Source: a virus
Direction: 5' to 3' (one strand)
Length of the DNA stretch: 64,000 bases
IMG/VR virus record: IMGVR_UViG_3300049434_000014
Location: 62,001-126,000 of that record
Shown one piece after another: positions 5,102-24,119 of the stretch. Position 1 is the first letter of the stretch, and the number at the start of each line of letters is the position of its first letter. Below the pieces are notes generated by a model. The model was not told the origin of the DNA. It did not search any database and saw only the letters and a program-made list of their open reading frames with translations. The position numbers were made by a program, and so were the translations under genes.

Positions 5102-5130
5102 GTAACGTTCCACCGTGTTCTGACGATATA
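5102..5130 (+). promoter_or_regulatory. GTAACG-N17-GATATA promoter, leaderless
   Basis: GTAACG at 5102-5107 and GATATA at 5125-5130 are separated by 17 bp. GATATA ends 6 nt before the ATG at 5137, leaving no room for a Shine-Dalgarno site. This is the only copy outside the accessory region. Confidence 0.65.
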
Positions 5131-5136
5131 CGGTAC

Positions 5137-5784
5137 ATGAACGCAAACACCACCGCCAAGAAGTCCAACCCAGTCCTCGTAGCTCTTGCAATGAACGTCT
5201 CGGTCTTCGGCATCAAGCTCGTGGCCGGTCTGCTGACCGGCTCCGCAGCGATGATGGCTGAGGCTGCGCACTCTGCGGTGAACAGCTCATCTGAGGTGAT
5301 CTTGCTCGGCGGTGAGCTTCACGCTCGCAAGTGGGCCAAGGCGACGTTCTTTTGGGCGCTGGTGGCTGCGGTGGATATCTTCGCTGTGGGTGGTGTGTAC
5401 GCCGCTTACCAGGGTATCCGGGCGATGCTCGGTAACGAGGTTGCGGACACGCTGACGTGGGTGGCGCTGGTGGTGCTGGCCCTGTCGTTCATGTTGGAGT
5501 CCAAGTCTTTGATCACCGCGCTGCGGGCGTTGGCTGTGGATCGTGGCGACAAGCCATGGTTGCTTCACATTCGTACGACCACCAATACGAGCGTTAAGAC
5601 GGTTGTTTACGAGGACTCGGCTGACCTGCTTGGTTGTGTGCTTGCTGCTCTGGGTATCGCGGCAACGATGGCGACCGGGTCGGCAATCTGGGATGGTCTG
5701 GCATCGGTGCTGATCGGTCTGTTGCTGGTGGGTATGGCGTTGGAGTTGGGAACGCAAAACGTCAAGCTGCTGCAGGCAGCGTGA
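5137..5784 (+). CDS. Cation diffusion facilitator-like membrane protein, reduced and altered
   Basis: 215 residues from ATG 5137. Five to six hydrophobic helices and the lines GSAAMMAEAAHSAVNS and YEDSADLLG identify the cation diffusion facilitator (CDF) family of heavy-metal/proton antiporters. Family members usually have HSxxD in helix 2; here it reads HSAVN. The family's HPFGYG loop between helices 2 and 3 is missing, and the cytoplasmic C-terminal domain is absent (family length about 300). Codons end in C or G more often than in the neighbours, suggesting recent transfer. It may still move metal, or act as a membrane decoy. Confidence 0.8.
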   Translation: MNANTTAKKSNPVLVALAMNVSVFGIKLVAGLLTGSAAMMAEAAHSAVNSSSEVILLGGELHARKWAKATFFWALVAAVDIFAVGGVYAAYQGIRAMLGNEVADTLTWVALVVLALSFMLESKSLITALRALAVDRGDKPWLLHIRTTTNTSVKTVVYEDSADLLGCVLAALGIAATMATGSAIWDGLASVLIGLLLVGMALELGTQNVKLLQAA

Positions 5785-5797
5785 TCAGTTTCAAACG

Positions 5798-5839
5798 GCA
5801 ATCGAGGTAGACAGTTTCTTGTCTCCTCGATTGCTTTTA
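5798..5839 (+). terminator. Rho-independent terminator after the CDF-like gene
   Basis: GCAATCGAGG at 5798-5807 pairs perfectly with CCTCGATTGC at 5825-5834 and is followed by TTTTA. It isolates the CDF-like gene as a single-gene unit. Confidence 0.8.
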
Positions 5840-5907
5840 CTTTGCAGCGTTTCGATGCATTGTGTGCACAACTGTGGTTTCATCGTTCACGGGTCTGCGC
5901 GATGACT

Positions 5908-5916
5908 GGGTAGGAG
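5908..5916 (+). promoter_or_regulatory. Start-associated motif GGGTAGGAG
   Basis: TAGGAG ends 6 nt before ATG 5923. AGGAG here could also act as a Shine-Dalgarno, so this copy alone does not separate promoter from ribosome site. Confidence 0.5.
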
Positions 5917-5922
5917 CGGGAC

Positions 5923-6372
5923 ATGATCTCGGTGTCTGTGGACTTCAGTGATGGCAGCACGTTTACCGTGTCTGCTGAGTCTCCTGTTGCTGTGGTGGGT
6001 CTTCGTGACTTCCCTGAGGAGGTGAAGGTCAGGGAGACTCTGTTGATGCTGGTGGAGGCTCTGTGTTCGTGCATGCAGGTGTCTGCAGACTTCCGTGGTC
6101 CTATGCGCCATCCCGGCATGGCGTCTGAGCTTCAGATGGTGAGGACTCCCTCGCCCGTTGAGGAAGCTGAAAACGAGGTGCGCTTTCAGATGGCTCTCGC
6201 GCGTGCTCCGCATGATTCAGCGGGTGGTCGTGCTCTGTCTGTGCTGGGAGGGTTTATTGCGGACAATGCGTCGTTTAACGATGCTTGGAATCGTTTATCT
6301 CCTGCTCAGCGTCGAGATGCGGAGCGTGAGTTGCTGAGAATCAATCAAGACATGCATTCTGATCAGCCATAA
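5923..6372 (+). CDS. Unrecognised acidic protein, first gene of the accessory block
   Basis: 149 residues. The N-terminus forms short beta strands (ISVSVDFSDGSTFTV), then mostly helix with three Cys near residues 45-50. The C-terminal 40 residues are helical and charged (SPAQRRDAERELLRINQ). No family recognised. It follows a terminator and opens the long run of small + strand genes. Confidence 0.65.
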   Translation: MISVSVDFSDGSTFTVSAESPVAVVGLRDFPEEVKVRETLLMLVEALCSCMQVSADFRGPMRHPGMASELQMVRTPSPVEEAENEVRFQMALARAPHDSAGGRALSVLGGFIADNASFNDAWNRLSPAQRRDAERELLRINQDMHSDQP

Positions 6373-6439
6373 AGACTTAATCGATTTCCCCAGTTTGTTC
6401 ATTCATTTGCCGATCTTCTACTCCGACTGGAATACGAAC

Positions 6440-6856
6440 ATGCCTAAGCTTTTGTTCATCTCAGGACCGATGACGCACATGCCTAATCAGAATCGTGATG
6501 CGTTTCACGAGGCTGCAAAGCGTTTGCGCGATCATGGTTACCATGTGATTAGTCCTGCTGAGCTTAGGCCCGAAGATCATAGTGTGCTTAATCGTTGTAC
6601 GAGAAAGGATTTGCAAATCCTTCTCGCCTTTCCTATTGAAGGTATTGCTACGTTGCCTGATGGGCCTGAGGTCCACCCTGATTTCCCTCCAAGCGCGGGT
6701 ATGGCTGTGGAGCGACGTCTTGCTGACGATGTGCTTAAGGTTCCCGTTCTTAGTGTTACGTCGTGGCTGACTCTTGATCCTGAGGATCCTGATCCCTTGG
6801 GTTTGGAGAGTGCGGATTTGACGATGCAGGATTTGCGTGGTCTCTATGATTGCTGA
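6440..6856 (+). CDS. DUF4406 / nucleoside deoxyribosyltransferase-like protein
   Basis: 138 residues from ATG 6440, chosen because MPKLLFISGPMT is the family N-terminus. Landmarks are FISGPMT, N..AF..AA..L...GY.VISPAEL, the DL..LL segment, IATLPDGPE and S.GM.VER.LA. These match DUF4406, small Rossmann-like proteins related to nucleoside 2-deoxyribosyltransferases and common in phages. A role in nucleotide handling is inferred from the fold. The C-terminal extension (about residues 110-138) is acidic. Confidence 0.75.
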   Translation: MPKLLFISGPMTHMPNQNRDAFHEAAKRLRDHGYHVISPAELRPEDHSVLNRCTRKDLQILLAFPIEGIATLPDGPEVHPDFPPSAGMAVERRLADDVLKVPVLSVTSWLTLDPEDPDPLGLESADLTMQDLRGLYDC

Positions 6857-6862
6857 TCGCAC

Positions 6863-6871
6863 GGGTAGGAT
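6863..6871 (+). promoter_or_regulatory. Start-associated motif GGGTAGGAT
   Basis: TAGGAT equals the Streptomyces housekeeping -10 consensus and ends 6 nt before GTG 6878, consistent with a leaderless transcript. Confidence 0.6.
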
Positions 6872-6877
6872 AGGTAC

Positions 6878-7129
6878 GTGATTCTCTTTTTGTTGGGTCT
6901 TGTCACTTTCGTGATGGCTGGCGCTCTGGCTGCTTCGGTAGCCATTGCCGCTGCGTCGTTGGTGCTGCTGATGCTTTTACTGGCTCTACGTGGCGTGTGG
7001 CGGCTGTTTCGGCCTGCTCCTGTGCCTGTCCCTATAACGTTTGATTCGTTGCGCTTGACGAGCCCTGTACGTGAGCCTTCGTGGCCCAAGCTGGTCAGCG
7101 CGTTCTTTGAGGGTGTGGTCTCCAAATGA
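6878..7129 (+). CDS. Small membrane protein
   Basis: 83 residues, GTG start. Two hydrophobic helices occupy roughly residues 2-45, followed by a Pro/Arg-rich cytoplasmic tail. No family recognised. Its stop overlaps the ATG of the next gene (ATGA), indicating translational coupling. Confidence 0.65.
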   Translation: MILFLLGLVTFVMAGALAASVAIAAASLVLLMLLLALRGVWRLFRPAPVPVPITFDSLRLTSPVREPSWPKLVSAFFEGVVSK

Positions 7130-7338
7130 GTGGCTTACGTGTTGTGCTGGTGCTCCCTGATGCTTCTGAGGTTGATCTGTACATGCCTGCGTCGATCGTG
7201 GCTGGCGATGGGCTGCATGTGGGTGGGATGATTTATTACGCGCAGGTTCCTATTTGGGTGGTGGAGCCTTCGGTGTTCCCGGATGGTCCTCCTGTGGTTC
7301 ATCAGCGTGTCCCGTTGCAGGAGCGTTCGAATCGGTAG
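7126..7338 (+). CDS. Unrecognised 70-residue beta-rich protein
   Basis: Coupled to the upstream membrane protein by a 4-nt overlap. The sequence alternates short beta strands (LRVVLVLPDASEVDLYMP) with prolines, and has no cysteines or charged clusters. Function unknown. Confidence 0.55.
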   Translation: MSGLRVVLVLPDASEVDLYMPASIVAGDGLHVGGMIYYAQVPIWVVEPSVFPDGPPVVHQRVPLQERSNR

Positions 7339-7341
7339 GAC
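7333..7341 (+). promoter_or_regulatory. Start-associated motif CGGTAGGAC
   Basis: TAGGAC ends 5 nt before ATG 7347. The motif overlaps the stop codon of the 7126 gene. Confidence 0.5.
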
Positions 7342-7346
7342 AGGTT

Positions 7347-7556
7347 ATGGATGATGTGGTCACGTTTGTGACGAAGCCTTGCCCTGTCTGCGAGTTGCCC
7401 TCGCAAATTGAGGTCAGCTTCAACGATCTGGAGCGTTGGATCCAGGGTGAGCACATTCAGAATGTGTGGCCTAGCTGGGATCCGGGTCAGCGCGAGCTGT
7501 TGATGACAGGGACTCACGATGCGTGTTGGCAGGTTATGTGGGGTCGCGATGAGTAA
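7347..7556 (+). CDS. Small CxxC protein of a type common in actinobacteriophages
   Basis: 69 residues from ATG 7347. KPCPVCELPSQIEV followed by a helix, then QRELLMTGTHDACWQVMW, matches a frequent actinophage and actinobacterial small protein in which the second half contains ERELLxxGxCxxCW. One of the second pair of cysteines is replaced here (THDAC). Probably zinc binding. No function known. Confidence 0.65.
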   Translation: MDDVVTFVTKPCPVCELPSQIEVSFNDLERWIQGEHIQNVWPSWDPGQRELLMTGTHDACWQVMWGRDE

Positions 7557-7710
7557 TCCTTTGCCTCGACCGCAACTAAAATCCGGCACGCCCGTTGAGG
7601 ATGTACTTGTGGAGTTCGAGGGTCGAATTATGCGTTGCGAGGATATCCCGAACCTTTCCGTTCGGTTTCAAGTTCTGAGATCCTTGTCTGAGATGCGCGA
7701 TGAAAACTAG
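7549..7710 (+). CDS. Unrecognised 53-residue protein
   Basis: Start ATG 7549 lies inside the end of the previous gene. The sequence has a Pro-rich N-terminus and a charged helix (LSVRFQVLRSLSEMRDEN). It overlaps the next ATG by 11 nt. Function unknown. Confidence 0.5.
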   Translation: MSNPLPRPQLKSGTPVEDVLVEFEGRIMRCEDIPNLSVRFQVLRSLSEMRDEN

Positions 7711-7942
7711 AAAATATCGTCCTCGCGATCCTCTCCCTGATGAGTTCTTTAAGTGTGCACTGTGTACGAACGTCTTTGACACGATTGAAGCATTTGATGC
7801 TCATCGAGAGGATGAATCGTGTTTGGTTATCTCGACTCCTCCCCAGATCCAGCCTTCAGCGCCTCAGCTCAAACGCGTGCAGAGACGAGGAAGGTTGGTC
7901 ATCAAGGGCGCCATCGACTTGCGTCATCTGACGAGGAAGTAG
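7700..7942 (+). CDS. Single zinc-finger protein
   Basis: 80 residues. CALC-x13-H-x5-C (ending DAHREDESC) forms one C2H2/C2HC-type finger at about residues 19-42. The C-terminus is basic (KRVQRRGRLVIKG), suggesting nucleic-acid binding. Start overlaps the previous gene, so it is part of the 7.3-8.4 kb operon. Confidence 0.6.
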   Translation: MKTRKYRPRDPLPDEFFKCALCTNVFDTIEAFDAHREDESCLVISTPPQIQPSAPQLKRVQRRGRLVIKGAIDLRHLTRK

Positions 7943-7944
7943 TG

Positions 7945-8154
7945 ATGATGCGTTCTACGACGCCACTATACTTATCGTGGCTGTTCGCCTTAATCATCTT
8001 TACGATTGGGGCTATCCTGCTTCCCTCATCGTGGCCGTGGTGGCTTCTGCGTATCGCTGCCTTCCTGCTCATATTAGGTTTCGTTACGGTGAGTGCGCGA
8101 TGGTATTTGCAGCGTGGGCGCCTGCCGAGGTGGTGGCCGTCGTCAAGGGATTGA
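7945..8154 (+). CDS. Small two-helix membrane protein
   Basis: 69 residues from ATG 7945 (a second ATG follows directly). Two hydrophobic segments, about residues 10-28 and 33-50, and a basic Trp-rich tail (YLQRGRLPRWW). Function unknown. Confidence 0.6.
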   Translation: MMRSTTPLYLSWLFALIIFTIGAILLPSSWPWWLLRIAAFLLILGFVTVSARWYLQRGRLPRWWPSSRD

Positions 8155-8159
8155 GGCAT

Positions 8160-8360
8160 GTGCTGTTTCAGTTACTGGTTGTTGCCACGACGGTCGTTCT
8201 GATCCTGGGCTTTGTGTCTGTGCCGGGGGTGTCGTGGTGGATGACGGCGATTGTGCTGGTCGTTGCGGGAGCTGTGCTCGGTTTGGTGGGTTCTGATCTC
8301 GTTATGTTGTATTTTAGGCGTCCAAAACACTCTTCGCGTCGTTCAGAAGATGTTCGGTGA
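8160..8360 (+). CDS. Small two-helix membrane protein
   Basis: 66 residues. GTG 8160 is chosen because AAGGGA lies 10 nt upstream and the protein then begins with the first hydrophobic helix. Two helices occupy about residues 2-20 and 25-45, followed by a basic tail (FRRPKHSSRRSEDVR). Arranged like the 7945 gene and possibly an old duplicate. Confidence 0.55.
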   Translation: MLFQLLVVATTVVLILGFVSVPGVSWWMTAIVLVVAGAVLGLVGSDLVMLYFRRPKHSSRRSEDVR

Positions 8361-8365
8361 AAGCT

Positions 8366-8394
8366 GTAACGTTTCGACCGCGCGCACCGATACA
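8366..8394 (+). promoter_or_regulatory. GTAACG-N17-GATACA promoter
   Basis: GTAACG 8366-8371 and GATACA 8389-8394. A leader of about 45 nt with AAGGAG precedes ATG 8440. The promoter begins just after the 8160 gene stops. Confidence 0.65.
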
Positions 8395-8439
8395 CTGTAT
8401 GTAAGGTTCAAACGCCCCCCAAGCCCCAAGGAGTCCCCG

Positions 8440-8598
8440 ATGATCGACACCAAGGTTGCCGTTCCCGCGCTGGTAGCGGTGCTCACTCACGAGGATCGTG
8501 TGAAGGCGCTGCGTCAGGACTGTGGTCGGATCGCTACCTGGATGGTCGTGTCGGGTGTGCTGGCCGCGCTGCTTCTGCTCGTGAGTGTGTTGGTCTGA
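8440..8598 (+). CDS. Small single-helix membrane protein
   Basis: 52 residues from ATG 8440, preceded by CAAGGAG. The N-terminal half is polar and helical (LTHEDRVKALRQDCGR), the C-terminal half is one membrane helix ending LLVSVLV. Its own promoter lies upstream. Codons end in C/G more than in flanking genes. Function unknown. Confidence 0.6.
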   Translation: MIDTKVAVPALVAVLTHEDRVKALRQDCGRIATWMVVSGVLAALLLLVSVLV

Positions 8599-8617
8599 AA
8601 GTTCCGGGTAGGACTGT

Positions 8618-8646
8618 GTAACGTTTGCAAGGTCTGGTACGATATA
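8618..8646 (+). promoter_or_regulatory. GTAACG-N17-GATATA promoter
   Basis: GTAACG 8618-8623 and GATATA 8641-8646, followed by CCTAGTGTAAGG, which recurs at several of these promoters. A GGGTAGGAC motif sits about 13 nt upstream. Leader with AAGGGAG precedes ATG 8688. Confidence 0.7.
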
Positions 8647-8687
8647 CCTAGTGTAAGGCTCAATTCACCCGGTTAAGGGAGATCGAA

Positions 8688-8912
8688 ATGTTCTCAACGT
8701 TGCAGGTTGTGGTTCCTGACGAGATGCGCGAGACGGTTGAGGCTGTGTTGGCTGAGGTCAACGCTGATGCGCCTGCTCCGTGCCTTTCGATCTCTGAGAC
8801 GGACGCCGGGTTCGACGTGCGCGCTGAGCTGGCTGATGTGGCCGCTGTGCGGTCTGCGTTGCAGTACATCGGCGGTCGGGTGTCTGCGGGCTGGCGTCGG
8901 GTGGAGTTCTAA
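8688..8912 (+). CDS. Unrecognised 74-residue acidic protein
   Basis: MFSTLQVVVPDEMRETVEAVLAEV.. gives a beta strand, a helix, two strands and a final helix with an RR-containing end. The pattern resembles a small ferredoxin-like fold. Single-gene unit with its own promoter and leader. Function unknown. Confidence 0.6.
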   Translation: MFSTLQVVVPDEMRETVEAVLAEVNADAPAPCLSISETDAGFDVRAELADVAAVRSALQYIGGRVSAGWRRVEF

Positions 8913-8929
8913 ACTTCTTCTGAAAGCTT

Positions 8930-8958
8930 GTAACGTTTGCGATGTGTGGTACGATACA
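8930..8958 (+). promoter_or_regulatory. GTAACG-N17-GATACA promoter
   Basis: GTAACG 8930-8935 and GATACA 8953-8958, with CCTAGTGTAAGG after it. It drives a 140-nt structured leader before ATG 9109, the longest leader of the class. Confidence 0.7.
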
Positions 8959-8986
8959 CCTAGTGTAAGGCACCGAACAACCGCAA

Positions 8987-9042
8987 GGCAGAGCGTCCGG
9001 GCGGTTGGAGGTGGTGGGAATTGTTCGGCAGAGCGTCCGGGC
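8987..9042 (+). repeat. Direct repeat and hairpin in a long 5' leader
   Basis: GGCAGAGCGTCCGGGC occurs at 8987-9002 and again at 9027-9042, a 40-nt period. Between and after the copies, GAGGTGG (about 9008) can pair with CCACCTC (about 9050). Nothing else in the promoter class has a leader like this, so it may be a regulatory RNA or a structured 5' UTR. Confidence 0.5.
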
Positions 9043-9108
9043 TGGCCTTCCACCTCATCGGTGCCGACATCTAGACATCGATCTTGACATCCGGTAAAGG
9101 AGCAGGTC

Positions 9109-9261
9109 ATGGTTGCGGTTCGCTACAAGGATTGGTCAAAAGATCTCCCCGTGACCCGCGAGAAGGAGTTCAAGTCTGAGCGTGCGTTCCAGTCTTGGCT
9201 GACCAGGGTCGCCGAGCGGGGCAACGTTGAGGTGTTGGCCACGTGCCGTGAGGGTGCGTGA
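9109..9261 (+). CDS. Unrecognised 50-residue basic protein
   Basis: ATG 9109 lies 7 nt after AGGAGCAGG. The sequence begins MVAVRYKDWSKDLPV and is rich in Lys/Arg and Glu with one central helix. Stop TGA overlaps the next ATG (TGATG). Function unknown. Confidence 0.55.
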   Translation: MVAVRYKDWSKDLPVTREKEFKSERAFQSWLTRVAERGNVEVLATCREGA

Positions 9262-9464
9262 TGCGGGCGCTGTGGGGTGTGCTGGTCGAGTTGTTCTGCT
9301 TGCTGTGGGGTGTGTTCGTAGCGGTGGCGTTTCTTGCTGTGGGCCTGCTCATCGTGGGTGTGACGTCGGGTGAGCTGACGGTGGTGCTGCTCAGTGTGCT
9401 GGCCGTGATCTTCGTTGGGTTCGTGGCGTGGTGTGTGCGGTTGTTGTTTACGGATAGTGTGTAA
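9261..9464 (+). CDS. Small two-helix membrane protein
   Basis: 67 residues from ATG 9261. Two long hydrophobic helices (about residues 4-32 and 38-60) separated by SGEL, with almost no soluble part. Holin-like in size, but there is no lysis context here. Coupled to the upstream gene by a 1-nt overlap. Confidence 0.6.
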   Translation: MRALWGVLVELFCLLWGVFVAVAFLAVGLLIVGVTSGELTVVLLSVLAVIFVGFVAWCVRLLFTDSV

Positions 9465-9489
9465 CGTTCCTGGCCCCACGAGCGATATA
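9461..9489 (+). promoter_or_regulatory. GTAACG-N17-GATATA promoter
   Basis: GTAACG 9461-9466 overlaps the stop codon of the 9261 gene. GATATA is at 9484-9489. GACGGAGG leader precedes ATG 9529. Confidence 0.7.
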
Positions 9490-9528
9490 CTGTATGTAAG
9501 CGAACAACAACTTAGACGGAGGCACCAA

Positions 9529-9729
9529 ATGGGCACCACGAAGTGGATCGACGCAAGCAAGCTCACCGCTGGTGCTGAGGTCTACATCAAGCCAGGCTTC
9601 GATACCTACAAGGTGGGTGTGGCGTTCGTGGCGGGTCCGGTCTCTGACGATGGCACGCTGCCGGTGACCTTCGAGGGTAGCGGTCGGGTGGCGTGGGTGC
9701 CGCTGCGATCGGTGTCTGAAAGCCTGTAA
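9529..9729 (+). CDS. Unrecognised 66-residue beta-rich protein
   Basis: ATG 9529 follows GGAGGCACCAA. WIDASKLTAGAEVYIKPG and VGVAFVAGPVSDDGTLPVTFEGSGRVAWVPLRSV suggest a small SH3-like barrel. Codons are C/G-ending compared with neighbouring blocks. Function unknown. Confidence 0.6.
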   Translation: MGTTKWIDASKLTAGAEVYIKPGFDTYKVGVAFVAGPVSDDGTLPVTFEGSGRVAWVPLRSVSESL

Positions 9730-9754
9730 CGTTTTCGATGTATGGTACGATATA
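9726..9754 (+). promoter_or_regulatory. GTAACG-N17-GATATA promoter
   Basis: GTAACG 9726-9731 overlaps the preceding stop codon. GATATA 9749-9754 is followed by CCTAGTGTAAGG. Leader with AAGGGAG before ATG 9797. Confidence 0.7.
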
Positions 9755-9796
9755 CCTAGTGTAAGGCAGTCAACCACCCGATCAAGGGAGCTGGTC

Positions 9797-9973
9797 ATGG
9801 ATCCGATTCGCGAGTTCGATCGCACCGAGCGAGTGTTCACGGGACGCTGGTATGTGCTGGTCAAGGTCTATGGGCCTGCGGGTGACTGCACTGAGGTCGA
9901 CTCCGAGACGGGCGGTCCGGGTCTGCGCTATTCGGTGATGAAGCAGTACGTGCCAGCTTCGATGTGTGTCTGA
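9797..9973 (+). CDS. Unrecognised 58-residue protein
   Basis: MDPIREFDRTERVFTGRWYVLV begins the protein, and GDCTEVDSETGGPGLRYSV follows. The strand pattern resembles the 9529 and 10069 products (short beta-rich proteins behind the same promoter), so the three may be diverged copies. Function unknown. Confidence 0.55.
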   Translation: MDPIREFDRTERVFTGRWYVLVKVYGPAGDCTEVDSETGGPGLRYSVMKQYVPASMCV

Positions 9974-9991
9974 AAGATCTTCAACGAGCCT

Positions 9992-10020
9992 GTAACGTTT
10001 GATCCACTCCGAGCGATATA
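9992..10020 (+). promoter_or_regulatory. GTAACG-N17-GATATA promoter
   Basis: GTAACG 9992-9997 and GATATA 10015-10020. A leader of about 45 nt with AAGGGAGCTGGTC, nearly identical to the leader of the 9797 gene, precedes ATG 10069. Confidence 0.7.
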
Positions 10021-10068
10021 CCTAATGTAAGGCACACACGCACTACCCAATCAAGGGAGCTGGTCATC

Positions 10069-10242
10069 ATGGCACGCGAGGTCGACACTTTCGAGTTCCG
10101 CACTTCCCACTGGACCGAGCCTCGCGGGCGTGGTAGCTGGATCTTCGAGAACAAAGACTCCGGTGAAGAGGTCACCTTGCAGGGTCCGTACTCGAGGGTG
10201 GTTCGTCAGCTTCCTGCGGGTAGTTGGAAGGTCCTTCCGTAG
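10069..10242 (+). CDS. Unrecognised 57-residue protein
   Basis: MAREVDTFEFRTSHWTEPRG.. then GSWIFENKDSGEEVTLQGPYSRVVRQLP. Beta-rich and basic toward the C-terminus. A terminator follows at 10259. Function unknown. Confidence 0.55.
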   Translation: MAREVDTFEFRTSHWTEPRGRGSWIFENKDSGEEVTLQGPYSRVVRQLPAGSWKVLP

Positions 10243-10258
10243 TTCACTAGTTCGCTCT

Positions 10259-10290
10259 GAGACCGGTTTCCGCAGGTGGGAGCCGGTCTC
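10259..10290 (+). terminator. Hairpin terminator
   Basis: GAGACCGG at 10259-10266 pairs with CCGGTCTC at 10283-10290. Only a weak T run (TTGCGTT) follows, so termination may be partial. The same stem sequence is reused in the terminator at 10972. Confidence 0.6.
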
Positions 10291-10309
10291 TTGCGTTGGG
10301 TAGGACTAT

Positions 10310-10338
10310 GTAACGTTTGCGAGGTATGGTACGATATA
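10310..10338 (+). promoter_or_regulatory. GTAACG-N17-GATATA promoter
   Basis: GTAACG 10310-10315 and GATATA 10333-10338, 20 nt after a terminator and directly after a GGGTAGGAC motif. Leader with ACGGAGGG before ATG 10377. Confidence 0.7.
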
Positions 10339-10376
10339 CATGATGTAAGCGAACGTACGAATTGACGGAGGGCGTC

Positions 10377-10628
10377 ATGGCTCAGCGTAAGTACCGCAAG
10401 GGTGATCGGATTCAGTTTCTGAGCAACGGTGTGCTCGGTCAGGTGGTGCGCAATATGGGGCCTGCTGTCAATACTCGTACTGGCAATGATGTGATTGAGT
10501 GGCGCGAGGTGCTGCCTGACGGTGCTGGTGGGGAACGTTTGGGCGCGGTGTGTGTCCACGACGCGGAGAAGCTTTGGCTGGTCATGGCGGCTGTCTCAGC
10601 GTTTCCCAAGCCGGGTGTGTTGAGGTAG
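10377..10628 (+). CDS. Small SH3-like protein
   Basis: 83 residues from ATG 10377. KYRKGDRIQFLSNGVLGQVVRNMGP, ..DVIEWREVLPDG and DAEKLWLV have the strand spac­ing of small barrel proteins of the KOW/YopX sort. Could bind nucleic acid, but no motif proves it. Ends immediately at the next promoter. Confidence 0.55.
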   Translation: MAQRKYRKGDRIQFLSNGVLGQVVRNMGPAVNTRTGNDVIEWREVLPDGAGGERLGAVCVHDAEKLWLVMAAVSAFPKPGVLR

Positions 10629-10656
10629 TAACGTTTGCATGGTTCACTACGATATA
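10628..10656 (+). promoter_or_regulatory. GTAACG-N17-GATATA promoter
   Basis: GTAACG 10628-10633 overlaps the preceding stop codon. GATATA 10651-10656 is followed by CCTAGTGTCAGG. Leader with CAGGAGG before ATG 10703. Confidence 0.7.
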
Positions 10657-10702
10657 CCTAGTGTCAGGCAGTGCACGGGGTTCAACCCAGGAGGTCATGG
10701 TC

Positions 10703-10951
10703 ATGAAGTTTACTCACCCGGTTCTTGTTCTCACAGCCCTCGAGCTGGCGCGTCGTGAGCCCACTCAGGATGAGGTTCCCCCGAGCCTGACGGTGACGAT
10801 GTCTGAGTTGGATCGGGCTGGCCTGGCTGAGTACGTCATGCAGCGTCGTGGTCGGGTGTCTCGCACACGGGTGCGTTTGACTGAGACTGGTCTTGCTCGC
10901 CTGCGTAGGGCTCGGAGGATGGCTCAGGAAGTCGCTGCTGAGGATGTGTAA
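10703..10951 (+). CDS. Winged-helix-like small protein, family A
   Basis: 82 residues. ATG 10703 is preferred over 10697 because GGAGG lies 8 nt upstream. ALELARREPTQDE gives a first helix, SELDRAGLAEYVMQRRGRVSRTRV a recognition helix and wing, then VRLTETGLARLRRARR. The ending 'LTxxG + basic helix' is shared with the products at 15334, 17790, 18154 and 18987. Probable DNA-binding regulator. Target unknown. Confidence 0.55.
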   Translation: MKFTHPVLVLTALELARREPTQDEVPPSLTVTMSELDRAGLAEYVMQRRGRVSRTRVRLTETGLARLRRARRMAQEVAAEDV

Positions 10952-10971
10952 CGTTTCGTAGGCAAGTACGG

Positions 10972-11001: not shown

Positions 11002-11015
11002 GCTTGCAGGATCGA

Positions 11016-11044
11016 GTAACGTTTGCATGGTCCGGTACGATATA
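11016..11044 (+). promoter_or_regulatory. GTAACG-N17-GATATA promoter, leaderless
   Basis: GTAACG 11016-11021 and GATATA 11039-11044. ATG 11051 follows after 6 nt (ACCATT), too close for a ribosome site. Confidence 0.7.
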
Positions 11045-11050
11045 ACCATT

Positions 11051-11278
11051 ATGAAGAACGTGATCGTGGCCGCGTTGCTGGTGCTCTCAGGGCTTGCCTG
11101 CCCGCTAGCCCAGGCTGTGGGTTCTGACGTCGTGGTGGGGCACACAGCGGCTCTCTCGGTGCCGTTCATCCCGATCCTGGTGCGGGGCGGTGAGGGTTGC
11201 AGCGAGGAGCCTTCTGCGGATGGCACGACGGAGCGGATCTGCGGTGTGTTGGTAGCGGACTTGATCGAGTCTGTCTGA
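11051..11278 (+). CDS. Small secreted protein
   Basis: 75 residues. MKNVIVAALLVLSGLACPLAQAVG is a typical signal peptide with a likely cut after AQA. The mature part is about 52 residues with two cysteines (EGCSEEP.. and RICGV), which could form a disulphide. Leaderless promoter. Exported phage proteins of this size may alter the cell envelope, but the function is unknown. Confidence 0.65.
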   Translation: MKNVIVAALLVLSGLACPLAQAVGSDVVVGHTAALSVPFIPILVRGGEGCSEEPSADGTTERICGVLVADLIESV

Positions 11279-11314
11279 CTCGGTAGGACTCATTAACGAG
11301 TAAGGAGCGCGAAG

Positions 11315-18414: not shown

Positions 18415-18739
18415 GCCTGGTACGAGGATCTATCTTTCGTATCAACGTTTTGTTCATGCGTTGTGGTTTGGTACTGCTGTTGTGGTGTCGTATGATTCAC
18501 ATTACGAAGAGTACGTGATCGATCGTGATCCTGGCTCAGCTACGGATAAGTTGGCGCCTCTGCGTCAGCGTTGGCCTGAGCATCACGCTCATCGCGCGAA
18601 GTATCAGCCGGGTGTGGAGCCGGATGAGCGCGTTCTACCGGGTGTGTATCCTGCTGTGTCTAAGCGTTTGATTGAGTTGGGGTATCGTAAGGGTACTCAT
18701 TTTACGGTCCCGCTTGAGCCTTCTGACGAGATGGTTTGA
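18401..18739 (+). CDS. Unrecognised 112-residue protein
   Basis: ATG 18401. KDLKPGTRIYLSYQRF then FGTAVVVSYDSHYEEYVIDRD suggests an SH3-like start, followed by a His/Arg-rich middle (LRQRWPEHHAHRAKY). Function unknown. Confidence 0.55.
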   Translation: MKDLKPGTRIYLSYQRFVHALWFGTAVVVSYDSHYEEYVIDRDPGSATDKLAPLRQRWPEHHAHRAKYQPGVEPDERVLPGVYPAVSKRLIELGYRKGTHFTVPLEPSDEMV

Positions 18740-18740
18740 T

Positions 18741-18959
18741 ATGAATCAGGATGTCGAGGAGACTCGCGCTCGCTGGCTGCAGATGCACAGCGCCAATCAT
18801 CATGTGGTGGCGTTTTTGAAGGCTGGCGCGGAGAAGCAGAATTCTGCACCTTCGCTTAACGAGCAGTACCGTTTGATTTACACGTTCTATCTTGCGCATG
18901 GGTTTATTCCGGCGCACGCTTGGCTTTGTCTGTTGAGGATTCTCGCGGAGCGCAACTAA
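18741..18959 (+). CDS. Unrecognised 72-residue helical protein
   Basis: ATG 18741 follows the stop of the previous gene by 1 nt. Helical throughout (DVEETRARWLQMHSANHHVVAF, RLIYTFYLAHGF). Function unknown. Confidence 0.5.
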   Translation: MNQDVEETRARWLQMHSANHHVVAFLKAGAEKQNSAPSLNEQYRLIYTFYLAHGFIPAHAWLCLLRILAERN

Positions 18960-18972
18960 CCGTGACCCATTC

Positions 18973-18981
18973 GGGTAGGAC
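18973..18981 (+). promoter_or_regulatory. Start-associated motif GGGTAGGAC
   Basis: TAGGAC ends 5 nt before ATG 18987. Confidence 0.5.
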
Positions 18982-18986
18982 GTTGC

Positions 18987-19262
18987 ATGGCTACCCGGAC
19001 ACTGAGATTCACTGAGCCCACTATGGTTTATGAGGGCTTGCAACTTGCTGATCGGCAGACTCCCGTGGAGGACATCCCTCGTCGGATTCGTCAGACGATT
19101 CAGGAGTTGGAAGTCGTCGGCCTGGTCGCTCAGGAGTCTGTTCGCTCGGGTAGGGGGAGACGAGTTCCCCAGTTGTGTCTGACACAAGATGGTCGTAGGC
19201 GTTTGCTTACCGCCAGGCGTGCGATGTTGGATGCGGCGTCAGCACCTGTGATGGTTAATTAG
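18987..19262 (+). CDS. Winged-helix-like small protein, family A
   Basis: 91 residues. TMVYEGLQLADRQTP, PRRIRQTIQELEVVGLVAQE, then a basic wing SVRSGRGRRVPQ and LCLTQDGRRRLLTARRAM. Clearest helix-wing-LTxxG example of the group. Probable DNA-binding protein. Confidence 0.6.
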   Translation: MATRTLRFTEPTMVYEGLQLADRQTPVEDIPRRIRQTIQELEVVGLVAQESVRSGRGRRVPQLCLTQDGRRRLLTARRAMLDAASAPVMVN

Positions 19263-19271
19263 GGAGATGTC

Positions 19272-19442
19272 GTGTTCGGTGGCAGCAAAGAGAAGTGCTC
19301 GAATTCGAGTGTTTGGGGTTGTAATAATTATGCGACCTCGAAGGTGAAGGGTGTTCTTGTGTGCGATTCGTGCAATGTGTACTCGGGTAACGTCACTACG
19401 GTGCGAGGCAATCGTGCGTTCGTGGTGGTCTCTAAGAGGTAG
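19272..19442 (+). CDS. Short zinc-ribbon protein
   Basis: 56 residues, GTG start 7 nt after GGGAG. KCSNSSVWGCNNYATSKV then VLVCDSCNVYSG gives four cysteines arranged as a C-x8-C ... C-x2-C ribbon. Too short for many gene callers. A terminator follows at once. Confidence 0.6.
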   Translation: MFGGSKEKCSNSSVWGCNNYATSKVKGVLVCDSCNVYSGNVTTVRGNRAFVVVSKR

Positions 19443-19447
19443 TTAGG

Positions 19448-19469
19448 GGAGGCGTCGGGGCCTCCTTTT
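19448..19469 (+). terminator. Rho-independent terminator
   Basis: GGAGGC 19448-19453 pairs with GCCTCC 19460-19465, followed by TTTT. Short stem, but GC-rich and with a U tract. Confidence 0.65.
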
Positions 19470-19478
19470 GAGGAGTGG

Positions 19479-19619
19479 ATGAGCATGGAGTGGGCTTTGT
19501 TGGAGCTGGATGAAGATAGTATTTGGCAGGTGGTAGGACAGACCGCTCATGAGGAGAAAGCCTCTGAGTTTCTCGATGACGCAGACGATGGTTTGCGTAA
19601 AGTGATCCCCTTGGAGTAG
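19479..19619 (+). CDS. Short acidic protein
   Basis: 46 residues, ATG 19479 after GAGGAG. MSMEWALLELDEDSIWQVV.. and FLDDADDGLRKVIPLE. Strongly acidic helix. Ends 2 nt before the RNA ligase start, so likely co-transcribed with it. Confidence 0.5.
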   Translation: MSMEWALLELDEDSIWQVVGQTAHEEKASEFLDDADDGLRKVIPLE

Positions 19620-19621
19620 TC

Positions 19622-20482
19622 GTGCTTCCACCATTTTACTATTTTTCTTCAAAGCTGCTGACGCATCTTAACTCGGCTACGAAGTATCCGTCGATTCCTA
19701 CGTACCATGCGTTGGGTGAGCGTGGTCGTCTGACGGAGGCGCGCAATGTTGTCTTTGATGGACCGGTTAACGTGTCTGAGAAGATCGACGGTGTTAATGC
19801 GCGTATCATCTTGCCACCGTGGGGTCAACGGGGCGGTAATCCTATCCTCGGGTCGCGCGAGGAGTTGCTGCACTACGTTGGAGATTTGATTTACAATCCT
19901 ACTGAGGGAATTGTAGATACGATACTTCCGGTTTTGACTTTGCCTCCGGAGACTTTGCCGGGTACGGAGATGCAGCAGCGTCGTGCGTTGGGGCAGGAGT
20001 CTTCGAATATCATCGTGATTTACGGTGAGGTCTATGGTGGAACTACCACTACGCGTAAGCAGTATACGTGTGCGGGCGTGCCTGGTTTCCGTGTGTTCGA
20101 TATCGCTATAATTGATCCTGATGTGTTGGATTGGCCTGTTGAGAAGATCTCTTCGTGGCGTCAACATGGTGGACAACAGTTCTTAAATTATGCATCCATG
20201 GTGGAGTTGGCTACGGATGCTCTGTTGTCGGTGGTGCCTCAGTTGGCTGCCAGTGCTCCCCCGGTGGGTGTTGCTGACACGTCGGAGTGGTTGGGTCGGA
20301 CGATTTCGCATAGTTACGCTGTGTTAGATGATGGTGCTGTTGGCCGTCCCGAGGGGTTGGTTGTGCGGTCGGAAGATCGATCGAAGATCGCTAAGATTCG
20401 GTTCGAAGACTATAGGCGCACGTTGACACCTCCTGTTCCTACGAAGAAGCGAGGTTCGAGTGGGAAGTCCGAGCAGGGCTGA
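19622..20482 (+). CDS. RNA ligase, Rnl2-like
   Basis: 286 residues, GTG start after GGAG. Nucleotidyltransferase motifs in order: EKIDG near residue 53-57 (adenylated Lys54), GSREEL (motif Ia), IVIYGEVYGG (motif III), EGLVVRSED (motif IV) and AKIRFEDY (motif V). These are the motifs of ATP-dependent RNA ligases that seal 3'-OH/5'-phosphate breaks. In phages such ligases repair tRNAs cut by host anticodon nucleases, which fits the tRNA cluster at 33-36 kb. No polynucleotide kinase is seen in the window. Confidence 0.85.
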   Translation: MLPPFYYFSSKLLTHLNSATKYPSIPTYHALGERGRLTEARNVVFDGPVNVSEKIDGVNARIILPPWGQRGGNPILGSREELLHYVGDLIYNPTEGIVDTILPVLTLPPETLPGTEMQQRRALGQESSNIIVIYGEVYGGTTTTRKQYTCAGVPGFRVFDIAIIDPDVLDWPVEKISSWRQHGGQQFLNYASMVELATDALLSVVPQLAASAPPVGVADTSEWLGRTISHSYAVLDDGAVGRPEGLVVRSEDRSKIAKIRFEDYRRTLTPPVPTKKRGSSGKSEQG

Positions 20483-20861
20483 TCGTCCCGCTGTCGCGGG
20501 TCATGTTGAGCAGCCCATGCCTGCTCCTGTGGTGGGTGCTGTGGGCACGCACGAGCTGATGCTGGGCGACCTTGGGTGGGTGTTTCCCGCTCAGGCACGC
20601 GAGGCTCTGGCGGTCATCATTGAGGAGCGGATGCGCATCGGGCTGGCGCGTTATGGTCAGCCGTTGCAGCCTGGCAATGGTCGGTCGGATCTGCGTGATG
20701 CGCTCGAGGAGGCGGTCGACCTCGCGGCTTATCTGTGCAATGCCGATCGTGCGGGTGTGGGCGGGGCTGTGCCTCTTGACCAGATGTATCGGATGGCCAT
20801 TCGTATGGCTGCGTGGCTTGCTTTGGCTGTGTCTAATGAGGTAGAGGTGTCTGACGGGTAG
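20460..20861 (+). CDS. MazG-like nucleotide pyrophosphohydrolase
   Basis: 133 residues, or 114 if the in-frame ATG 20517 is used. EERMRIGLARYGQPL, then GRSDLRDALEEAVDLAAYL carries the EExxD metal-binding helix of all-alpha NTP pyrophosphohydrolases. The role inferred is removal of unwanted (d)NTPs or signalling nucleotides during infection. Overlaps the end of the RNA ligase gene by 23 nt. Confidence 0.65.
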   Translation: MGSPSRADRPAVAGHVEQPMPAPVVGAVGTHELMLGDLGWVFPAQAREALAVIIEERMRIGLARYGQPLQPGNGRSDLRDALEEAVDLAAYLCNADRAGVGGAVPLDQMYRMAIRMAAWLALAVSNEVEVSDG

Positions 20862-20864
20862 TAC
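20856..20864 (+). promoter_or_regulatory. Start-associated motif GGGTAGTAC
   Basis: TAGTAC ends 5 nt before ATG 20870 and overlaps the previous stop codon. Confidence 0.6.
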
Positions 20865-20869
20865 TCGTC

Positions 20870-21298
20870 ATGCCTATCTCGATTGAGAAGATGCAGGTTG
20901 CTTTCTGTGACGCGTGCGGTACTCGTCGTGTTGCGTCCGTTGATGAACCTCTCCTAGGAGCTACTGGGACGGTTCAGGTTGACGAAGACTTCGGCGGATA
21001 CGTAATAAAGTTTTTCTCGTGTCAGACTACTGCCGAGCATATTGCTTTGGCTTATGCGCGGGCTCGCGAGACTGAGTTTGATCCGGCTCCTGTGGTGCCT
21101 GTCGTCGTGGAACGTGCCGACGATCCGTGGCCTAAGCGTCGTTCCCCTCGCCGTCCTGCGGACGTTTTGGTCGCTGAGTTGCGCGAGTTGTGGATCAATG
21201 ATGGCGCGCGTCCTTCTATCACCAAGGTGAAGAGGGTTCTCCACGTTGGCGAGAAACGGGCAAAGTACCTACTCAGTATGACTCCTGACCCTACGTGA
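20870..21298 (+). CDS. Protein with N-terminal Cys pair and C-terminal helix-turn-helix
   Basis: 142 residues. AFCDACGTRRV provides a CxxC at about residue 14. The last 45 residues (VAELRELWINDG, then PSITKVKRVLHVGEKRAKYLL) have the spacing of a helix-turn-helix used by actinobacterial replication and transfer proteins. Probable DNA-binding protein. Confidence 0.6.
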   Translation: MPISIEKMQVAFCDACGTRRVASVDEPLLGATGTVQVDEDFGGYVIKFFSCQTTAEHIALAYARARETEFDPAPVVPVVVERADDPWPKRRSPRRPADVLVAELRELWINDGARPSITKVKRVLHVGEKRAKYLLSMTPDPT

Positions 21299-21308
21299 GG
21301 TTGTAGTA

Positions 21309-21500
21309 ATGCGATTGTCTGGACCGGAGCCTGCACGTTTTGAGGCAGGTCTTTGTAGTTGGAATGTAGCATGGCCAGGTAGCACAGTGTCTAGATACTG
21401 TAAGGATGAACGCGAGGGTATCTATATCTACTGTTTCCCGCATTGTGAGATTGCCATCATGCGTGATGGTGCTATCTGGGAGGATTTGCGTCTTTCGTAG
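21309..21500 (+). CDS. Unrecognised 63-residue protein
   Basis: ATG 21309 after GAGGTTGTAGTA. Contains five cysteines or histidines (GLCSW, RYCKDE, YCFPHCEI). Possible small zinc protein. Function unknown. Confidence 0.5.
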   Translation: MRLSGPEPARFEAGLCSWNVAWPGSTVSRYCKDEREGIYIYCFPHCEIAIMRDGAIWEDLRLS

Positions 21501-21516
21501 GGTTTCTTTCATGGTC

Positions 21517-21525
21517 GGGTAGGAC
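21517..21525 (+). promoter_or_regulatory. Start-associated motif GGGTAGGAC
   Basis: TAGGAC ends 5 nt before ATG 21531. Confidence 0.5.
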
Positions 21526-21530
21526 GATGA

Positions 21531-22067
21531 ATGTCGATGTCATGTCCTCCCCGAATTCCGGGCGTCGATCCTTATGTGCAGTCTGGCGTGCACGAGATAG
21601 GACATGCTCTTGTATCAGGTCGTAGTGAAACCAACGCGACAGTTCTTAGTGTAGAGATTTGGGAACAAGACGGCCACGTTGTTGGCATGGTGATCAGTGA
21701 AATCCCTGAGACACCTAATGGCATAGGCGTCCGGGTTGAGCGTAATTCCTGGGTTGCCCCAGAGGATCTCTATGCGGCGTGTGTCAGTTCGGTAGCTGGA
21801 CAGCTTGCTGAGGCCATGTGGTTAGTGCGCCATCACGACTTTGACTTGTCTGAGGCTCTTGCTGCCACGAACGATACGGCTTGGTTCGATCAGGCCAATT
21901 TTCGACGGTATGCTGATTTGTTACGTCCTGTGATGCCGGACATCTCTGTGCGCGGGTGTCGCGCGGAGGCTGGTGCTTACCTTCGGAAGAGGTGGTCTGA
22001 CGTGGAGCGGTTGGGCAAGAAGTTGGCTAATCGACATTCCCTACGGCCATCGTTGGTGACTGCATAA
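21531..22067 (+). CDS. HExxH metallopeptidase-like protein
   Basis: 178 residues. VHEIGHALVSG at about residue 21-31 is a zincin active-site helix. A later helix with DLYAACVSSVAGQLAEAMW and D..EA recalls the third-ligand helix of FtsH-type (M41) peptidases, whose fold also begins with HExGH. No ATPase domain is present. The next gene encodes a second, diverged copy. Substrate unknown, possibly a host protein. Confidence 0.7.
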   Translation: MSMSCPPRIPGVDPYVQSGVHEIGHALVSGRSETNATVLSVEIWEQDGHVVGMVISEIPETPNGIGVRVERNSWVAPEDLYAACVSSVAGQLAEAMWLVRHHDFDLSEALAATNDTAWFDQANFRRYADLLRPVMPDISVRGCRAEAGAYLRKRWSDVERLGKKLANRHSLRPSLVTA

Positions 22068-22618
22068 TGAGCGATCTTGAGTACGATAAGCTTCGCGCGG
22101 CTGCTATTCATGAGACGGGGCATGCATGGCTTGGTTCCACTATTGGTCTTGACTTAAAGAAGATCAGTATGTGGAAGAGTTTTATGGCCGTCGCGGGTGA
22201 GGTGACTGTTGATAGGTCTAAGACGTTAGGTGTTTTCGAAGACGATTTCGACATGCTTGCTTTGTTTTATGTTGGCGGTCAGGAAGCCGAGTCAATATGG
22301 CTCGCGAGTGTTTACTCTTTAAGTATTTTTGAGGCACGACATATTACTAATGCTAGTTCTCGTTATGATAGGCGTTCGTTTCGAGAGTTAGCTCACTGTG
22401 CTGGTGTGGTGAGAGGTACTGTCGAGGCTCAGGCTAATGCGATTCTGAAGAGACACTGGCCTTCGATTGAACTTCTTGCTGACCGACTTGAATACAAACG
22501 TACTATGACTGCCGCTCCTGTGAATGCTGCAGTTGGTTCTAAGAATACTGATGGTTCACGACGTATTAAGAAGGTTACTCCGGAGATGTTGGTCGGAGCA
22601 CGTCCAGGGAGACACTGA
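22067..22618 (+). CDS. HExxH metallopeptidase-like protein, tandem paralogue
   Basis: 183 residues. AIHETGHAWLGS near residue 14-24 matches the active-site helix of the 21531 product; the same order of strands follows (KKISMWKSFMAVAGEV) and then VGGQEAESIWLASVYSLS, with Glu residues that could be the third zinc ligand. The C-terminus is basic. Start overlaps the previous stop by 1 nt, so both proteins are made together. Confidence 0.7.
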   Translation: MSDLEYDKLRAAAIHETGHAWLGSTIGLDLKKISMWKSFMAVAGEVTVDRSKTLGVFEDDFDMLALFYVGGQEAESIWLASVYSLSIFEARHITNASSRYDRRSFRELAHCAGVVRGTVEAQANAILKRHWPSIELLADRLEYKRTMTAAPVNAAVGSKNTDGSRRIKKVTPEMLVGARPGRH

Positions 22619-22893
22619 TGGCTGATTATATTAACTGTGGTGCTTGGACTTCACGCGGCATTCGTGTTCAGACTAAGTCTGAGTTGAAGTCACTGATTGC
22701 ACAAGATCCTGATTTTGTTCGTTTCGATCCTACTTCTATGCATCCAGGTTCGAACAATAATGGTGAGGATATACACGGGGGTTCCATACCTGATGGAGTT
22801 ATTCTTTCGGTGTGTGGACCGGATCCGGCACGTAATCGGAAGTGGTATGCGATGGTGACGAAAGGCAAGCGCGGCGGGATCAAAGTTTCTTGA
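22618..22893 (+). CDS. Small tandem-paralogue family B, copy 1
   Basis: 91 residues, stop-start overlap with the metallopeptidase gene. SELKSLIAQDPDFVRFDP.. followed by PDGVILSVCGPDP and KWYAMVTKG. The order 'helix, DP, V.FD, P.gv.L.V.G, strand' recurs in the products at 22933 and 23202. Function unknown. Confidence 0.6.
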   Translation: MADYINCGAWTSRGIRVQTKSELKSLIAQDPDFVRFDPTSMHPGSNNNGEDIHGGSIPDGVILSVCGPDPARNRKWYAMVTKGKRGGIKVS

Positions 22894-22932
22894 GTTGCGG
22901 GTAGGACTCGCAGCAAGTGGAGGGAGTGTTTC

Positions 22933-23184
22933 ATGGCAAATACAGTGCCGGTGGTGACGGCTCATACTCCTGATGGTCGTCAGATTGCCGGTCCGACGGT
23001 ATTGGCGATGTTCTTGGAGAGGCAGCCAGATACCCTTACGTTCATCTCTGTTGATGGGGGTGATCAGTTCAAGCCCACCCAGATGCCGGGTAAGGCTCAG
23101 GTCAAGGTGAATGGGCGAGGGGGAGGTGGAAAGGCGGCTACGGTTACTCGTTCGAGCAACCGTGGGGGATTCACGGTTAAGTAA
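22933..23184 (+). CDS. Small tandem-paralogue family B, copy 2
   Basis: 83 residues. PTVLAMFLERQPDTLTFISVDG, then MPGKAQVKVNGRGGGG and a basic tail. Shares the helix-then-'TF' layout of family B but has lost the DP. A GGGTAGGAC motif at about 22898 lies well upstream, followed by a leader with GGAGGGAG. Confidence 0.6.
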   Translation: MANTVPVVTAHTPDGRQIAGPTVLAMFLERQPDTLTFISVDGGDQFKPTQMPGKAQVKVNGRGGGGKAATVTRSSNRGGFTVK

Positions 23185-23201
23185 CGAGAGGTTGGTCGAG
23201 C

Positions 23202-23459
23202 ATGGCTAATGCCACTGCATACAAGGCAAAGGTTGTCAAAGACAACGGCGGGAAGGTGAAGGACGCGACAGAGCTGGCTGATCTGTTGAAGAAGGATCCG
23301 GCCATGGTGACGTTCGATTTGTCCAATCCTGGCAAGGGTGCTCAGGCTGGCGCTCCTAATACGCCTGGCGACAAGCTCCCCAAGAATACCGTCTTGGAGG
23401 TCGCAGGAATCAACGCGAAGGTGACGGTAAACAACAAGGGGGTGCCTACCGTTACCTAA
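23202..23459 (+). CDS. Small tandem-paralogue family B, copy 3
   Basis: 85 residues. ATELADLLKKDPAMVTFDLSNPG then PKNTVLEVAGINAKVTVN. Closest to copy 1 in the KKDP..V.FD region. All residues are polar and the protein is likely a small soluble fold. A terminator follows. Confidence 0.6.
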   Translation: MANATAYKAKVVKDNGGKVKDATELADLLKKDPAMVTFDLSNPGKGAQAGAPNTPGDKLPKNTVLEVAGINAKVTVNNKGVPTVT

Positions 23460-23475
23460 CGATTGTGTTTCGACA

Positions 23476-23515
23476 GAGGCCCCTTTCACTTAATCACTGG
23501 TGAGAGGGGCCTCTT
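23476..23515 (+). terminator. Terminator hairpin
   Basis: GAGGCCCCT at 23476-23484 pairs with AGGGGCCTC at 23505-23513, followed by TTGTT. Ends the 21.5-23.5 kb operon. Confidence 0.7.
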
Positions 23516-23560
23516 GTTGGGTAGTACTGGTTGTCATTCAATCTGGAAGGAGGGACTGTC

Positions 23561-23842
23561 ATGGATTGGCGCCATCGTGCTGAGTGTCGCAACGAGGACC
23601 CAGAGCTGTTCTACCCTGCTGGCACCAGCGGTCCGGCCTTGCTCCAGATCGCCGAGGCTAAGGCTGTGTGTCGTCGGTGTCCTGTCGTCAACGAGTGCCT
23701 GAACTGGGCTATGAAGTCGGGCCAGGATTCCGGCGTCTGGGGCGGGATGGATGAAGGGGAGCGTCGGGTGCTTAAGCGTCGCAGGGCTGAGTGGACTCGT
23801 AAGCATGGCCGCGAGGCCGCTGAAGAGCTGACGTCTGTGTAG
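23561..23842 (+). CDS. WhiB-like Fe-S regulator
   Basis: 93 residues from ATG 23561, placed 9 nt after AAGGAGGG. DWRHRAECR.. supplies Cys9, and VCRRCPVVNEC supplies Cys37, Cys40 and Cys46, the four [4Fe-4S] ligands. GVWGGMDEGERR is the family turn. The C-terminus is basic for DNA contact. WhiB proteins are confined to actinobacteria and their phages and act with the primary sigma factor. Phage copies can reshape host development or block superinfection. Confidence 0.9.
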   Translation: MDWRHRAECRNEDPELFYPAGTSGPALLQIAEAKAVCRRCPVVNECLNWAMKSGQDSGVWGGMDEGERRVLKRRRAEWTRKHGREAAEELTSV

Positions 23843-23875
23843 GTGGTCTGCCCGGTGTGGATCTCTGTTCGCACC

Positions 23876-23884
23876 GGGTATGAC
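23876..23884 (+). promoter_or_regulatory. Start-associated motif GGGTATGAC
   Basis: TATGAC ends 5 nt before ATG 23890. The GGGTA lies on the 3' arm of a hairpin that begins at about 23850 (CCCGGTG / CACCGGG). Confidence 0.55.
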
Positions 23885-23889
23885 CTGAG

Positions 23890-24078
23890 ATGATGGTATG
23901 GATTCTCGAGATTCTTGCAGTGGTTTTCCTGTGGTTTCTCAAAGCGTCAGGCATTTATCCAGACATGTCGTGGTTAGTTGTACTGGCTCCGATTTGGGTT
24001 CCTTACGGTATCGTTCTCATGCTTGGCTACTTTGCGACTCTTCTTCCGGGTAAGCGTTCGAGACGTCGTGCAAGATAG
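23890..24078 (+). CDS. Small two-helix membrane protein
   Basis: 62 residues. Two hydrophobic helices (about 3-20 and 27-50) and a strongly basic end (PGKRSRRRAR). Function unknown. Confidence 0.6.
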   Translation: MMVWILEILAVVFLWFLKASGIYPDMSWLVVLAPIWVPYGIVLMLGYFATLLPGKRSRRRAR

Positions 24079-24090
24079 TTACTCTACGTA

Positions 24091-24119
24091 GTAACGTTCT
24101 GCGTCTGTCTTGCGATATC
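24091..24119 (+). promoter_or_regulatory. GTAACG-N17-GATATC promoter, leaderless
   Basis: GTAACG 24091-24096 and GATATC 24114-24119, 17 bp apart. ATG 24125 follows after 5 nt. The only member of the class in the 20-30 kb region. Confidence 0.65.

Follow-up and report, generated by a model that had tools for sequence, protein, structure and literature searches.

The DNA analysed here, bases 62001 to 126000 of the 153,455-bp virus record IMGVR_UViG_3300049434_000014 (64,000 nucleotides (nt), hereafter the window), carries a series of short two-box elements, each followed by a gene (Table 1). The initial annotation had reported eleven copies of GTAACG-N17-GATAYM with an invariant 17-bp spacer, and all eleven were recovered exactly, all on the + strand, where 0.02 are expected from dinucleotide shuffles, none of which reached 11. 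The whole record contains those 11 exact copies and no others, and the reversed-pattern control yields 0. When pairs of 5-mers at set distances were counted across the record, with no motif as input, GTAAC-N17-CGATA ranked first (11 seen, 0.04 expected); on the + strand GTAAC is followed by CGATA 11 times at a gap of 17, and the remaining gaps between 12 and 22 all give 0.

Conservation extends beyond the boxes first reported. The full motif reads GTAACGTT-N14-CGATAYA, with GTAACGTT and CGATA invariant in all 11 copies and 14 nt between them. The 14-base spacer varies, although six copies have more of it in common, so the element consists of two constrained boxes at a set distance and is not a single long repeat that was copied. 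The sequence said to follow several copies, CCTAGTGTAAGG, is found unchanged after three of them (8618, 8930, 9726) and almost unchanged after another two (9992, 10628). A matrix built from the 11 sites scores them at 25-32 bits and the next-best place at 12. A twelfth, weaker site is located beyond the window, at record position 151158, where GTAACGAA-N14-CGATGTA is followed by a ribosome-binding site (RBS) and ATG. At the nucleotide level the region matched none of the 50,697 phage records searched.

Eight of the sites are followed by a leader, an RBS and a small open reading frame (ORF); the other three (5102, 11016 and 24091) end 6, 6 and 5 nt before an ATG, as annotated initially, a distance that fits leaderless starts. 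All but one of the eleven genes encode orphan products of 50-98 amino acids (aa); most of these genes are packed at 8.4-11.3 kb in the order promoter, leader, RBS, gene, and a promoter often starts at or close to the stop codon of the previous gene. Nothing convincing was found for the small ORFs in Pfam or PHROGs (the 75-aa product was searched against PHROGs only, the 98-aa product against Pfam only). We predict that the 11 boxes are almost certainly promoters. The housekeeping SigA -10 sequence TANNNT is matched by TACGAT at 6 of the 11 sites only, and the invariant core CGATA is not of SigA type.

Table 1. Predicted promoters and the genes behind them, in window coordinates
Feature	Position	Strand	Remarks
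Promoter 1, SigD-type	5102..5130	+	leaderless layout: GATATA, 6 nt, ATG at 5137
Cation diffusion facilitator (cation efflux) transporter, 215 aa	5137..5784	+	Pfam PF01545, E=1.5e-20
Promoter 2, SigD-type	8366..8394	+	leader and RBS
Small orphan ORF, 52 aa	8440..8598	+	RBS AAGGAG; no Pfam or PHROG match
Promoter 3, SigD-type	8618..8646	+	with CCTAGTGTAAGG
Small orphan ORF, 74 aa	8688..8912	+	
Promoter 4, SigD-type	8930..8958	+	with CCTAGTGTAAGG; long leader, ~145 nt
Small orphan ORF, 50 aa	9109..9261	+	
Promoter 5, SigD-type	9461..9489	+	
Small orphan ORF, 66 aa	9529..9729	+	
Promoter 6, SigD-type	9726..9754	+	with CCTAGTGTAAGG
Small orphan ORF, 58 aa	9797..9973	+	
Promoter 7, SigD-type	9992..10020	+	with CCTAATGTAAGG
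Small orphan ORF, 57 aa	10069..10242	+	
Promoter 8, SigD-type	10310..10338	+	
Small orphan ORF, 83 aa	10377..10628	+	
Promoter 9, SigD-type	10628..10656	+	with CCTAGTGTCAGG
Small orphan ORF, 82 aa	10703..10951	+	
Promoter 10, SigD-type	11016..11044	+	leaderless layout: GATATA, 6 nt, ATG at 11051
Small orphan ORF, 75 aa	11051..11278	+	N-terminus signal-peptide-like; no PHROG match
Promoter 11, SigD-type	24091..24119	+	leaderless layout: GATATC, 5 nt, ATG at 24125
Small orphan ORF, 98 aa	24125..24421	+	hydrophobic C-terminus

The boxes are probably -35 and -10 promoter elements that host RNA polymerase recognises when it carries the actinobacterial extracytoplasmic function (ECF) sigma factor SigD/ShbA. 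Eleven verified sigma-D promoters of Corynebacterium glutamicum, with mapped starts and transcription assays, have a -35 GTAAC[A/G] and a -10 GAT (PMC6338062), spaced as GTAAC-N17-18-GAT (PMC11588781). The C. glutamicum promoter PrsdA reads GTAAC-15 nt-CTCGAT and is conserved in 37 of 38 species, and putative sigma-D promoters lie upstream of sigD in Rhodococcus, Nocardia and Mycobacterium (PMC6338062). In Streptomyces coelicolor, in vitro transcription by ShbA is reported for both shbA itself and hrdB (PMC9205884). Every phage site agrees with the SigD consensus of C. glutamicum (GTAACG 11/11, CGAT 11/11, 18 nt from GTAAC to GAT 11/11). The phage sites share with PrsdA, Pcmt1 and the other C. 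glutamicum promoters (PMC6338062, PMC11588781) the -35 GTAAC[A/G], the arrangement GTAAC-N18-GAT and, as in PrsdA, the C before GAT. The genes served are different: the C. glutamicum promoters drive host cell-envelope genes, whereas the phage copies precede small orphan genes.

The same element was found in host genomes. Among 60 sampled actinobacterial genomes we took genes scoring over the cut-off of NF007230 as members of the SigD/ShbA family, and 14 of the 21 carry GTAAC-N18-GAT at their own 5' end and on the strand of the gene, although some of these sites overlap first codons aligned by the family model, which leaves the true start codons uncertain. The 205 control windows in the same sigD/shbA loci contain 0 such sites. 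In the host sites C precedes GAT in 14 of 14 cases, and GTAAC is followed by G or A. These apparently autoregulatory promoters have the same -35 as the phage (GTAACGTT exact at two loci), the same spacing and the same CGAT; they differ in that there is one copy per host gene and that the -10 mostly continues with G or C, not A. The recognition helix consensus of the SigD/ShbA proteins examined is AVRVA, which PMC6338062 gives for sigma-D. A matrix derived from the host sites alone finds 12 sites on the + strand and 0 on the - strand of this phage, and detects the element in two of the other phages described below (6/0 in contig G002, 12/0 in Gordonia phage Stormageddon) and not in the Microbacterium phage Magritte (0), with 0-1 hits at slid spacings.

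The Kribbella genomes (L093, L095, L097-L102, L104, L107, L109-L111) each have one conserved GTAACACT-N14-CGATAYACC site, which precedes a short conserved segment that contains a GC-rich hairpin and is T-rich at its end. This segment is possibly an unannotated small RNA under SigD; Rfam gave no convincing match at the site.

A strict scan of IMG/VR, with 15 single matches, had made the motif look private to this phage, a view overturned by the contexts of two of those matches and by a relaxed scan of viral contigs. In the relaxed scan many actinophage-like contigs showed these boxes at an unchanged distance (13 copies in G012, 13 in G016, 6 in G002, 6 in G019, 5 in G015 and 5 in G018), and 0 in the reversed-pattern controls. 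It was built on CGATAY, so that the -10 profile of the contigs found by it is biased by the query. G018 is the Gordonia phage Stormageddon, a complete genome isolated on Gordonia terrae. Read whole, it has 12 GTAAC[AG]-N16-CGAT sites where 0.03 are expected, all on one strand; an RBS and ATG follow closely after most of them, and the gene behind one site is annotated as superinfection exclusion. Here CGAT alone was searched, and A, G or C follows it. The -10 of the weaker site at record position 151158 is closer to this Stormageddon and host form. The motif class is spread over unrelated phages.

Contig G002 (IMGVR_UViG_3300035694_000001) is a phage of 95.8 kb that has a 127-bp terminal repeat and six SigD-type sites, and it encodes a homologue, ~50 % identical, of the cation efflux protein behind promoter 1. 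Several copies in G002 and related contigs likewise have an ATG 5-6 nt downstream. G002 also encodes a 193-aa ECF-like sigma factor (contig 60946-61536, - strand), which we considered as a phage-borne SigD and rejected since it matches SigD poorly. A general sigma model detects a clear sigma factor in G002, G014 and G016 and none in G012, G013, G015, G018 and G019; several of these are fragments, where absence is weak evidence. In the complete Stormageddon genome neither a SigD-like nor any other sigma factor is detectable.

If the host has SigD and this factor does read the boxes, the host SigD holoenzyme would transcribe from them after DNA entry, or once envelope stress frees SigD from its anti-sigma factor. 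Transcription would start ~6 nt after CGATAYA, at the A of the ATG in leaderless copies, and every small gene or short cassette would have a promoter to itself and be expressed separately from genes that depend on the main sigma factor.

Several points weigh against SigD as the reader. The phage boxes (GTAACGTT in 11/11, CGATAYA) are longer and stricter than those of C. glutamicum sigma-D. Two C. glutamicum phages, BFK20 and P1201 (the latter over its first 50 kb of 70.6 kb), are without the motif class, and the presence of sigma-D in a host therefore does not mean that every phage uses it. Finally, the phage has a FliA-like sigma factor of its own, and a -10 CGATA combined with a TAAnGTTT-N11 layout is also sigma-28-like.

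This last point leads to the alternative that survives best. The initial annotation had compared the layout to that of sigma-28 promoters and proposed an alternative or phage-encoded sigma factor, with a search of the rest of the genome for a sigma-28-like gene as a check. That search was run and does reveal a FliA/WhiG-like gene outside the window, at record 144495-145262 (L014:4495-5262). Its 255-aa product has FliA and WhiG as its sole PDB structure matches and scores 45.3 bits against NCBIfam TIGR02479 (E=8.2e-12), below the cut-off of 189.6; by these comparisons it is a divergent relative of the FliA/WhiG family. This sigma factor could read the boxes as a sigma-28 promoter of the form TAAMGTTT-N11-NNCGATAWA. 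We favoured this explanation at first because of the FliA-like gene. The CGATA of the -10 and the overall spacing agree with a sigma-28 layout, and the GTT after TAAC is invariant (11/11). The -35, however, is TAAC in all 11 copies and never the TAAA of FliA/WhiG promoters. Their -10, GCCGATAA, is not reproduced either: the two bases before the invariant CGATA vary, with no fixed GC, and Y follows it. Host sigD promoters, with the same boxes and spacing, fit better than the sigma-28 layout.

The distribution of motif and gene counts further against this sigma factor: both are present in this phage, but elsewhere the one is found without the other. Much of the genomes of this phage and of Magritte is collinear, and Magritte gp47, annotated only as DNA binding protein, is 25 % identical to the phage sigma factor and occupies the same place after a helicase gene. 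The collinearity and the syntenic sigma gene indicate that this phage is a distant relative of Magritte, yet Magritte has 0 copies of the motif at any spacing. Conversely, the motif class is present in Stormageddon (12 copies), G012 (13 copies), G015 and G019, where no sigma factor is detectable. What stands of the initial proposal is a promoter class of non-housekeeping type; the phage-encoded sigma factor as its reader does not, and we consider it unlikely. A variant seems to us slightly less likely still: the FliA-type sigma factor of the phage would have come by convergence to recognise the host SigD promoter, and with this sigma of a different class the phage could take over or bypass a host ECF regulon. 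Magritte gp60 also shows weak similarity to sigma factors.

A second, larger motif class runs across the whole record: GGTAG[GT]A[CT], with an ATG 5-6 nt later and no evident -35 box. GGTAGGAY has 50 occurrences on the + strand against 3 on the - strand. Sites of this class in the window include 7334, 12066, 12310, 14125, 17580, 18974, 20857, 21518, 24687, 25163, 32800, 33160, 34575, 35076, 39972 and 40232. Magritte has an analogue, GCGTATCA-N5-ATG, seen 9 times against 0.3 expected. It is possible that these are -10-only leaderless promoters read by the FliA-like phage sigma factor.

Another host alternative sigma factor with overlapping specificity, such as a BldN-like or SigH-like ECF sigma, is an improbable reader. 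AAC is common to ECF -35 elements, but the phage sites agree exactly with SigD/ShbA, in spacing as well as in the two boxes. Streptomyces sigma-BldN, with the promoter CGTAAC-N16-CGTTGA, was rejected because that -10 does not fit the phage sites. Sigma-H is weakly active at C. glutamicum sigma-D promoters, but its own boxes are GGAA[T/C] and GTT (PMC6338062).

That the boxes are binding sites of a phage regulator, and not promoters, is very improbable: such sites can be very uniform clustered repeats, but here there are two boxes in a single orientation at a fixed promoter spacing, with an ATG 5-6 nt downstream of three copies in this phage and of several in G002 and its related contigs, and the same boxes stand at host sigD 5' ends. 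The start-associated sequences of cluster K mycobacteriophages are similarly short motifs in many copies before small genes; they are described as single motifs at translation starts, not as two boxes with promoter spacing.

Two other features of the window may be recorded. A WhiB-like gene lies at 23561-23842, with relatives in G002 and L020, and Stormageddon likewise has an annotated WhiB-like gene. About eight clustered tRNA genes, one with an odd anticodon call, occupy 33465-35805, with a further weak one at 33743-33814; Rfam found only tRNAs over the window.

Many small genes of actinophages have no assigned role, and little is known about the control of their expression. The best reading of the sequences described here is that this large phage of an actinobacterium has brought genes, mostly small orphans, under the host SigD regulon. 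Unrelated phages, one of them isolated on Gordonia, have the same promoters, and the group as a whole appears to use a host stress or regulatory sigma factor instead of the main one. In the open-access full-text literature searched, we found no report of phages using SigD promoters. If unrelated large phages do place small genes in the host SigD/ShbA regulon, the motif would label a co-expressed set of genes and the stress state of the host would become part of the infection programme. Since ShbA controls the principal sigma factor gene in Streptomyces, such phages may be tuned to a central switch of their hosts.

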